A stretch of DNA of 64,000 bases from Halobacteria archaeon AArc-dxtr1 (lineage in GTDB: Archaea > Halobacteriota > Halobacteria > Halobacteriales > Natrialbaceae). Shown here piece by piece: positions 18,361 to 40,787 of this stretch. Under the pieces are notes generated by a model that ran no database searches, was not told the DNA's origin, and was given only the letters and a program-made list of their open reading frames with translations. A program made the position numbers and the translations under genes. Position 1 is the first letter of the stretch. Each line of letters begins with the position of its first letter. Location of the stretch: contig JAOPJY010000001.1 in the NCBI GenBank assembly GCA_025517425.1, positions 1,598,217 through 1,662,216 of the forward strand. Direction: 5' to 3'.

Positions 18361-19692
18361 TCAGCGTCCCGTCCACTTCAGCAGCAAGAGCGTCCCCTCG
18401 AAGAGGACGATCATCGTGAGCGTCACGAACACCGGCGCCATCGCGGTCGGGTCGAAGGTGAACATGAACGCGAGTCCGAGGAAGCCCGCCCAGAAGAACA
18501 GTCGCTTTTCGGCCAGCCACTCCCGGGTGGTGACGCCCATCATGATCGCGAGCATGATAAAGAGCGGAATCTGGAAGACGATCGCGAGGAAGCCGGTGAG
18601 GGTGATCACGAGGTCGAACGTCTCCCCGAGCGCGTAGGCGATCATCGCACTCCCCTCCGAGTAGAACGTGAAGTACTGGAAGAGGATCGGGAGGATCACG
18701 AGATACGAGAAGATCATCCCGACGCCGGCGAGGACGACGCTCGTCGGGACCGCTGCGAGGTAGTACTTGCGCTCGTTGGGGTAGAGCCCGGGGCGCATGA
18801 ACAGGTAACACTGGTAGACGAACATCGGTAACGCGACCATGATCCCCAGTAGCGCGGAGACCTTGATCCGGGTCAGCCACAGTTCAAGTGGGTGATAGAT
18901 GTGTGGCGGGCGTTCGGTAGCATTCGGAATCACGTCGGTCCAGATGAACGTGATGACATCCGATGCCCACAACAGCCCGACCGCCGTCCCGGCCGCACCG
19001 AACAGCAACACGACCGCCAGGCGGAGGATCATCTCCTCGATGTGATCGGCCAGGGGCATCTCCTGGTCGTCCGGAGGGGTCGAGACGCCGCCGAGATCGT
19101 CGTCGTCGATCGACTGCTTTCGGTTCTTCTTGTGGGCGCTTTCGGTCGAGGAGGGGGGTGAGTACGCATTGACCCGAGAGCCCGCGTAGATCTCGGGGCC
19201 GCCGTTGAGGAGTCCTTCGCCGTCGGTCTCGACAGGATGGGGCTCGCCGTCCGACTCGACCGCTGGATCGTCGGAGTCGGCGTCTGCGTCCGGCTCGTCT
19301 GCATCTGTCTCGGCGTCTGCGTCGGCGTCTGCATCTGTCTCGGCGTCTGCGTCGGCGTCTGCATCTGTCTCGGCGTCTACGTCGGCGTCTGCATCTGTCT
19401 CGGCGTCTACGTCGGCGTCTGCATCTGTCTCGGCGTCTACGTCGGCGTCGGCATCTGCCTCGGCGTCTACGTCGGCATCGGACCCGGTCTCTTTGTCGTC
19501 GCTGTCCGCGTCGGCGTTCGCGCGCGGCTGCTCGTCGTCCGACTCGGCCGCCGGATCGTCCTGGGCGGTGTCGTCGGACGAGGGGGCTGCAGCCTGCGTC
19601 TCGTCGGCGGTGGGGGGCTGTGGGGCGTCCGAGTCGTCCGCGGACTCGTCCGGCCGCTGGTCGGTCCCACCGTCGTCCGGCTCGTCCGGCAT
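18361..19692 (-). CDS. tatC: twin-arginine translocase subunit TatC (TatCo type) with long acidic N-terminal repeat region
   Basis: A 443-residue protein. Residues 1 to about 205 are hydrophilic, Asp/Ala/Glu-rich and repetitive; the TatC core follows (about 212-443) with MPLADHIEEMILRL, the conserved HPLELWLTRIKVS loop and FMRPGLYPNERKYY, and six membrane helices. TatC recognises the RR signal peptide and, with TatA, exports folded proteins, the dominant export route in haloarchaea. The acidic extension is much longer than usual and is encoded by a 30-bp tandem DNA repeat. It is divergent from the double TatC gene. Confidence 0.95.
   Translation of the reverse strand: MPDEPDDGGTDQRPDESADDSDAPQPPTADETQAAAPSSDDTAQDDPAAESDDEQPRANADADSDDKETGSDADVDAEADADADVDAETDADADVDAETDADADVDAETDADADADAETDADADADAETDADEPDADADSDDPAVESDGEPHPVETDGEGLLNGGPEIYAGSRVNAYSPPSSTESAHKKNRKQSIDDDDLGGVSTPPDDQEMPLADHIEEMILRLAVVLLFGAAGTAVGLLWASDVITFIWTDVIPNATERPPHIYHPLELWLTRIKVSALLGIMVALPMFVYQCYLFMRPGLYPNERKYYLAAVPTSVVLAGVGMIFSYLVILPILFQYFTFYSEGSAMIAYALGETFDLVITLTGFLAIVFQIPLFIMLAIMMGVTTREWLAEKRLFFWAGFLGLAFMFTFDPTAMAPVFVTLTMIVLFEGTLLLLKWTGR
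19301..19480. repeat. six tandem 30-bp units inside tatC
   Basis: The unit beginning GCATCTGTCTCGGCGTCT starts at 19301, 19331, 19361, 19391 and 19421 with only G/A changes (TGC versus TAC), and a degenerate sixth unit starts at 19451. On the coding strand each unit gives ten residues of the type ADVDAETDAD. The near-identity between units suggests recent expansion by slippage or unequal crossing over, so copy number probably varies between strains. Confidence 0.9.
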
Positions 19693-38502: not shown

Positions 38503-39576
38503 TCAATCGACGGTCGGCTCTCCCACCGTCGACGTGCCGGCGGATCGACGCCGCCCGGCGAGCGCGAGCGCCAGCGCCCCCAGCCCGAGCAGGAAGACGG
38601 CCAGGTTCACCAACCCGCCGAAGATCGGAATGAGCCCGACCAGCGCGAAGCCGACCAGCCCGACGACGAGCGCGAGCCAGCGGTTGTCAGCACCCAGCCG
38701 AGACAGCAGCCACGCTGCGACCGCAAATCGGCCGTAGACGATCCCGACCCAGACGACGAGAGCGAACGCGAGCGCGCCGATGAGCGCAATCGGGATGCCG
38801 AGAATCGTGATGGCGATCAGCGCCAGAAGGATCGGAACGCCGACGAGGAGCCCGAGGCCGACGAGGCCGGATTTGAGGGGTGAGCCCGCGACTCGATCGG
38901 CGACCGACGTCGAGAACCGGGGGAAGAGTACGAGTAATGCGGCGCCAAGCAGCAGGTTCAGGAGGAGTGCATAGATGGCAAACACCACCGAGAAGAGCGG
39001 ATCGAGCACGGGAGCGACGTCGGTGCCGATCGTCGAGTCCTGGATCGTCTCGCCCGCGACGACGCCGGTGTCACCCTCCAGCGACCCGTCGTACCTGAGG
39101 TCGCCCTCGATCGCCGCGGTCTCGCCGAGCTGGATCGTCTCGGCGCCGATTGTGGCGTCGCCACCGATCGTCCCGTCGACGACGACGGTTCCGGCGCCGA
39201 CGCTGAACTCGCCGCCGACCGCGCCGTCCTCGCCGAGGACGACGTTCCCGGCGGCACCCTCGACGTCGCCCGCGACTGTGCCGGAAATCTCGATATTACC
39301 AGCCAGTGCCGAGAGGTCGCCTTGGACCTCACCGTCGACGTAGACGTTGCCCGCAACCGCGCTGACGTCACCCGTGACAGTGCCCTCGACGTAGACGTTT
39401 CCCGCGAACGCGTCGATGCTGTCGACGGTCTCGCCCTCCTCGACGACGACCGTGCCGCCGACGCCGTCGCTTCCGTCGACGGACTGGGCGAGGACTGTCG
39501 CCGGCAATGTGGCGATGAGGAGCACGACAAACACCAAGACGGCAATTCGGCCGGTGTGAGAGGCCAGCGCTGACAT
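38503..39576 (-). CDS. bactofilin-like beta-helix protein with C-terminal membrane domain
   Basis: A 357-residue protein. An N-terminal hydrophobic helix (IAVLVFVVLLIATLPATVLA, residues 10-29) ending in VLAQ may be a Sec signal peptide or anchor. Residues about 40-175 form Gly/Val repeats every 18-20 residues (GNVYVEGTVTGDVSAVAGN), the polymer-forming cytoskeletal/bactofilin beta-helix pattern. Four or more membrane helices follow (about 190-340). Extracytoplasmic adhesion or envelope scaffolding is an inference. ATG 39576 avoids a non-conserved upstream extension. Confidence 0.83.
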   Translation of the reverse strand: MSALASHTGRIAVLVFVVLLIATLPATVLAQSVDGSDGVGGTVVVEEGETVDSIDAFAGNVYVEGTVTGDVSAVAGNVYVDGEVQGDLSALAGNIEISGTVAGDVEGAAGNVVLGEDGAVGGEFSVGAGTVVVDGTIGGDATIGAETIQLGETAAIEGDLRYDGSLEGDTGVVAGETIQDSTIGTDVAPVLDPLFSVVFAIYALLLNLLLGAALLVLFPRFSTSVADRVAGSPLKSGLVGLGLLVGVPILLALIAITILGIPIALIGALAFALVVWVGIVYGRFAVAAWLLSRLGADNRWLALVVGLVGFALVGLIPIFGGLVNLAVFLLGLGALALALAGRRRSAGTSTVGEPTVD

Positions 39577-39617: not shown

Positions 39618-39771
39618 ATACCAAATAGAGTGTGGCGCGTCACGCGATGCCAACGACCGAAGCCGACGTTCGATACCAAATAGAGTGTGGCGCGTCATTC
39701 AGACGTGTGCTCTTCCGATCTCGTTCGCCACCGGTAGTCGACTACCGCGTCGAACGTCGGCTTCGGTCGTT
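39618..39771. other. assembly artefact: Illumina adapter sequence with duplicated and inverted flanks
   Basis: Bases 39698-39721 match the 3' 24 nt of the TruSeq read-2 adapter exactly (contains GTGTGCTCTTCCGATCT). The 25 bp just before it (39673-39697, ATACCAAATAGAGTGTGG...) also occur at 39618-39642. The 22 bp at 39652-39673 (AACGACCGAAGCCGACG...) recur as a perfect inverted copy at 39750-39771. A palindrome CGGTAGTCGACTACCG is at 39732-39747. Together they indicate adapter read-through or a chimeric join, not biology. Confidence 0.93.
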
Positions 39772-39800
39772 TTATCTTCGACCCCACCCTTGGCGCGGAC

Positions 39801-40787
39801 ATGAGCGAGGCCGACGCCGAGACGGAGGCGACGCCGGGGCGGACCGAGGTCTGGATCGAAAAGTACCGACCCGAGCGCCTCGACGAGATCAAGGGCCACG
39901 AGAACATCGTCCCGCGCCTGCAGCGGTACGTCGAGCGCAACGACCTGCCGAATTTGCTCTTTGCGGGGCCGGCCGGGACGGGGAAGACGACGGCTTCGAT
40001 CGCTATCGCCCGCGAGGTCTACGGCGAGGACTGGCGGGAGAACTTCCTCGAACTCAACGCCTCCGACCAGCGCGGGATCGACGTCGTCCGCGACCGGATC
40101 AAGAACTTCGCGCGCTCGTCGTTCGGCGGCTACGATTACCGCATCATCTTCTTAGACGAGGCTGACGCGTTGACGTCGGACGCCCAGTCTGCTCTGCGTC
40201 GGACGATGGAGCAGTTCTCCCACAACACCCGCTTTATCCTCTCGTGTAACTACTCGAGTCAGATCATCGATCCGATCCAGTCGCGGTGTGCGGTCTTTCG
40301 GTTCACCGAACTGTCCGAGGAGGCGATTGCCAGCCAGGTTCGGGAGGTCGCCGAGACGGAGGGAATCGCATTGACCGAGGACGGCGTCGACGCGCTCGTC
40401 TACGCCGCCGCGGGCGACATGCGCAAGGCGATCAACGGGCTGCAAGCCGCCGCGGTGATGGACGACGCGGTCGACGAGGAGGCCGTCTTCGCGATCACCG
40501 CCACCGCCAGACCCGAGGAGGTCGAGGCGATGGTCGAACGCGCGATCGGCGGCGATTTCAGCGCGGCCCGTTCGACGCTCGACGACCTGCTGACCGATCG
40601 CGGACTGGCGGGCGGGGACGTCATCGACCAACTGCACCGGTCGGCCTGGGAGTTCGACCTCGAGGAACGAGAGACGGTCCGACTCTTAGAGCAACTCGGC
40701 GAGGTCGACTACCGGATCACCGAGGGCGCCAACGAGCGCCTACAGCTCGAGGCGCTGCTGGCGAGTCTGGCGCTCGACAGCCAGTAA
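39801..40787 (+). CDS. rfcS: replication factor C small subunit
   Basis: A 328-residue AAA+ clamp-loader subunit. Motifs: [18 protein letters not shown], Walker [14 protein letters not shown], Walker [15 protein letters not shown] motif [10 protein letters not shown], and sensor 2 [11 protein letters not shown]. With RfcL it opens PCNA and loads it on primed DNA. No intein is present although haloarchaeal rfcS genes often carry one. The coding region is intact, but its promoter lies in the suspect adapter-bearing stretch. Confidence 0.97.

Follow-up and report, generated by a model that had tools for sequence, protein, structure and literature searches.

The site analysed here separates two divergent, intact genes in a 64,000-nt stretch of the Halobacteria archaeon AArc-dxtr1 genome, referred to as the window. 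The gene on the minus strand (38503–39576) is called bactofilin-like after an earlier sequence-only reading of this DNA; it gave no Pfam or NCBIfam match and shares 53–67% identity with genes located near rfcS in relatives. The gene on the plus strand, rfcS (39801–40787), encodes the small subunit of replication factor C, contains Rep_fac_C and AAA domains and is mostly 84–87% identical to its counterparts in relatives. About 20 genomes of the family, L011 and L015 among them, show an interruption of the match to RfcS at approximately residue 64, in the P-loop; it continues about 2 kb further on, as a rule inside a single long open frame. An intein would produce this pattern; rfcS of the window carries none. 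The presumed core promoter element of rfcS, CTTCGGTCGTTTTATCTTC (39761–39779, plus strand), is located about 22–40 nt upstream of the ATG and was identified by comparison with the upstream regions of relatives and by alignment within the genus. The sequence CTTCGGTCGTTTTAT or close variants of it precede rfcS in 84 relatives, 27 of which have identical first 15 nt, and CTTCGGTCGTTTTATCTTC, which is intact in the window, aligns without gaps with the same-genus genomes. Rfam and tRNA searches gave no match within the window. Elsewhere in the window, an ORF on the minus strand (18361–19692) contains a 30-bp tandem repeat (19277–19476, 6.6 copies, 96% matches). The product is predicted to be a membrane protein and appears TatC-like by eye; its N-terminal extension includes the acidic, D/A/T-rich repeat that results.

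Between the two genes, the 24 nt at 39698–39721 (plus strand), TTCAGACGTGTGCTCTTCCGATCT, match positions 11–34 of the 34-nt Illumina TruSeq read-2 primer at all 24 positions and thus represent the 3′ portion of this adapter. The TruSeq sequences used for this and the second assignment described below are the standard ones. With uniform base composition, approximately 2 × 64000/4^24 = 5 × 10−10 such matches would be expected by chance in the window. The 24-mer was found in none of the 124 other genomes of the family; among all 125, the genome of the window (G000) alone has it. Within the remnant, the core AGATCGGAAGAGC is read on the minus strand at 39709–39721, and a search of the entire assembly (five contigs, 2.81 Mb) detected this core at one further position, C4:136295–136307. 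There, the contig ends in 41 bases (C4:136295–136335, corresponding to L023:6296–6336), of which the first 33 are the TruSeq read-1 primer, complete and in reverse complement; the remaining 8, TAAGCTTG, have the place and length of an i5 index and therefore appear index-like. This one assembly thus contains both kinds of TruSeq adapter. Adapters of the Nextera mosaic-end type were not found in the genome. An exact match far beyond chance, its absence from relatives and a second adapter in the same assembly together identify the 24 nt as adapter contamination.

The remnant is surrounded by two perfect repeats. A direct repeat of 25 bp (25/25 identical) is formed by 39618–39642, presumably the native copy, and 39673–39697, presumably an artefactual copy that adjoins the adapter; both lie on the plus strand. 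An inverted repeat of 22 bp (22/22 complementary) is formed by 39652–39673 and 39750–39771. The second of these arms is presumed to be native: it runs into the rfcS promoter, and the bases on its 3′ side, CTTCGGTCGTT, are conserved among relatives. The first arm (plus strand) would then be an artefactual fold-back copy of DNA that precedes this promoter and extends into it. Among 60 simulated sequences of 64 kb (first-order Markov), exact close repeats reached at most 15 nt (direct) and 17 nt (inverted), both shorter than those observed, and neither repeat is therefore due to chance. A perfect 16-bp palindrome, CGGTAGTCGACTACCG, lies near the junction at 39732–39747. The repeat finder returned exactly the two repeats described in the sequence-only reading, and the coordinates reported there for the adapter match, the duplication and the inverted segment agree with ours to the base. 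A mobile or repeated element was considered as the source of the 25-bp repeat and rejected, as the genome contains only these two copies and the core 19-mer occurs nowhere else in it.

The adapter also gives rise to open reading frames. One on the minus strand (39695–39940) ends in ...RSEEHTSE, this end being encoded by the adapter, and one on the plus strand (39632–40165) passes through the adapter and continues out of frame into rfcS. Neither has a Pfam match. Both are products of adapter read-through or of out-of-frame translation rather than genes, and they should stay unannotated.

The intergenic region is too long in comparison with close relatives. From the start codon of the bactofilin-like gene to that of rfcS, we counted 224 bp, whereas the four genomes of the same genus used for comparison have 138, 161, 162 and 162 bp, a surplus of about 62–86 nt here. 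Removal of the adapter alone leaves 200 bp, which fits the range of 138–162 bp less well. Removal of the 70 nt from 39652 to 39721 (inverted arm, second copy of the direct repeat and adapter) leaves 154 bp, within the range of the relatives. An alternative removal of 79 nt, comprising the first copy of the direct repeat, the spacer, the inverted arm and the adapter, leaves 145 bp and fits as well, so that more than one native sequence is compatible with the lengths; the intergenic sequences of the same genus are too diverged to prove which copy of either repeat is native. By length, 39652–39721 is most likely the surplus segment and the best candidate for a spurious insertion. The doubtful stretch extends from about 39618 to 39750, and the span of 39.58–39.80 kb that had been distrusted before is too wide.

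Parallels were found in a scan of GTDB contigs, in which the 24-mer occurred in at least 120 stretches; the 80 listed loci that we analysed contain 82 copies. Among these listed matches, 81 of the 82 copies lie no more than 200 nt from the end of the stretch, which was taken as the contig end for long contigs and is the contig end itself for the shorter, complete ones. Sixty-eight of the 82, again among the matches listed, run on into the next 10 adapter bases, CTCCAGTCAC. These cases of TruSeq carry-over at contig ends (L033–L112) resemble the site in the window by the same read-2 24-mer in read-through orientation directly after the end of an insert. In contrast to them, the remnant described here is internal to C1, a contig of 1.75 Mb, is cut short to 24 nt and borders on genomic sequence instead of CTCCAGTCAC plus an index. 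Two of these loci resemble the flanks as well. In a Flavobacteriaceae MAG (L057), the adjacent genomic DNA forms a hairpin that encloses the adapter, and in a Bacilli MAG (L095), CTTATTAAGACCTTCC occurs as two direct copies with both adapters between them. Adapter chimeras elsewhere can thus have flanks that are inverted or directly duplicated, whereas in the window an inverted and a direct copy occur together, both presumed artefactual copies being on one side of the adapter. For libraries fragmented by sonication or by enzymes, reads that are chimeric and contain inverted repeats or palindromes have been documented (PMC10908179). The PDSM model proposed in that study, in which partial single strands pair, predicts reads that join inverted nearby copies around palindromes or inverted repeats; such reads would suit the arrangement in the window, but the description of the model covers human DNA and does not extend to adapter junctions.

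The alternative that survives best is that only the 24 adapter bases are foreign and that both repeats are native, for example as a regulatory inverted repeat common to the two divergent genes. The palindrome adjoining the repeats would suit such an arrangement, and so would AACGACCGA, 9 nt inverse to the promoter element, which two same-genus genomes (L009 and L015) contain roughly as far from their bactofilin-like gene. These two loci suggested a conserved inverted promoter arm, which was rejected across 84 rfcS upstream regions. Only L009 and L015 among the 84 relatives have AACGACCGA (0.27 expected by simulation), 8-mers of AACGACCGA are about as frequent in these regions as in the simulation, and inverted matches in them reach at most 9 nt, compared with 22 nt in the window. 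Furthermore, the second copy of the direct repeat abuts the adapter exactly, and native repeats would leave the region at the excessive length obtained when the adapter alone is removed. We therefore regard native repeats as unlikely; the same applies, as judged from these comparisons, to a long inverted repeat peculiar to this one strain. Even less probable is the specific version in which both repeats, minus the 24 adapter bases, are real and form a strain-specific operator shared by the divergent genes.

A wrong join of two distant contigs, which would mean that the bactofilin-like gene and rfcS are not true neighbours, is very improbable. Adapters mark contig ends in other assemblies, so a join of assembly tips probably did occur at this position. 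Against a distant origin of these tips, same-genus genomes contain the same divergent pair, with g38198, g37757 and g37346 to one side of it and alaS to the other; the order g37346, g37757, g38198, bactofilin-like gene, rfcS, alaS is kept there, with extra genes between some members. The stretch available for G004 comprises rfcS in its first part only, at which an apparent intein starts, and does not include alaS. A bactofilin-like gene is located near rfcS in most of the family loci examined, and the repeats on both sides of the adapter come from one and the same 150 bp. Recurrence of the junction pieces at other contig ends would have pointed to a misjoin with one of these contigs; this was rejected, as only the 9-nt spacer CGCGATGCC recurs there, which is too short to be meaningful. 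The comparison of gene order with relatives gave no indication of a large-scale misjoin. Hence, two doubts raised by the sequence-only reading were not borne out: the adjacency of the two genes is conserved together with the gene order on both sides, and the rfcS promoter, which had been considered untrustworthy, starts 39 nt past the end of the adapter and agrees with that of relatives.

That the 24-mer is a natural haloarchaeal sequence resembling the adapter by coincidence can practically be dismissed, given its chance expectation, its absence from all other genomes of the family and the companion read-1 adapter at the end of C4.

We conclude with a probability of about 97% that the site around 39698–39721 is a sequencing and assembly artefact without biological function. 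The earlier interpretation as an artefact of untrimmed or chimeric adapter reads is strongly supported by the adapter at the end of C4, the absence of the 24-mer from 124 relatives, its copies at contig ends in GTDB and the surplus length of the intergenic region. In two cases, C3 with itself and C1 with C2, contig ends overlap by exactly 55 nt, which points to a de Bruijn assembly of short reads with k = 55; the repeats of 22 and 25 nt would then be too short to serve as graph overlaps of the last k. The joining step was presumably provided by real chimeric reads or by a gap-closing routine.

A sequence of events leading to such an artefact may be proposed as follows. A library molecule would have begun at 39722 (CGTTCGCC..., next to the ligation T of the adapter) and been read through into the read-2 adapter, yielding a right-hand assembly tip that begins with 24 nt of adapter. 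The left-hand tip would have carried a short fold-back and duplicated pieces (22 and 25 nt) of the same intergenic region, probably derived from chimeric reads around the palindrome at 39732–39747, which is a possible seed of the fold-back chimera. Fusion of both tips by the assembler would then have placed about 70 surplus nucleotides (39652–39721) into a native intergenic region of approximately 154 bp. This particular order of read-through tip, chimeric tip and fusion is about as likely as not.

The contig ends of this assembly show some further features. The contig C3 (271,966 bp; L030, L154), whose own ends overlap as mentioned above, is probably a closed circular replicon left linear. 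The ends of C1 and C2 (L028, L029, L153) have CACTACCGGGTCCTTCGGACCGCTCGTTCGCGCGAATGCTCGTG... in common, a repeat that probably represents a repeated element where the assembly was interrupted. With 2.8 Mb at 98.8% completeness, the genome is smaller than those of its same-genus relatives (3.2–4.7 Mb).

The significance of the site is one of quality control only. The record should be masked at about 39652–39721, the terminal 41 nt of C4 should be trimmed or masked, and no regulation is to be read into the repeats. The site holds no new biology, and both the flanking genes and the order in which they occur can be relied on without change.
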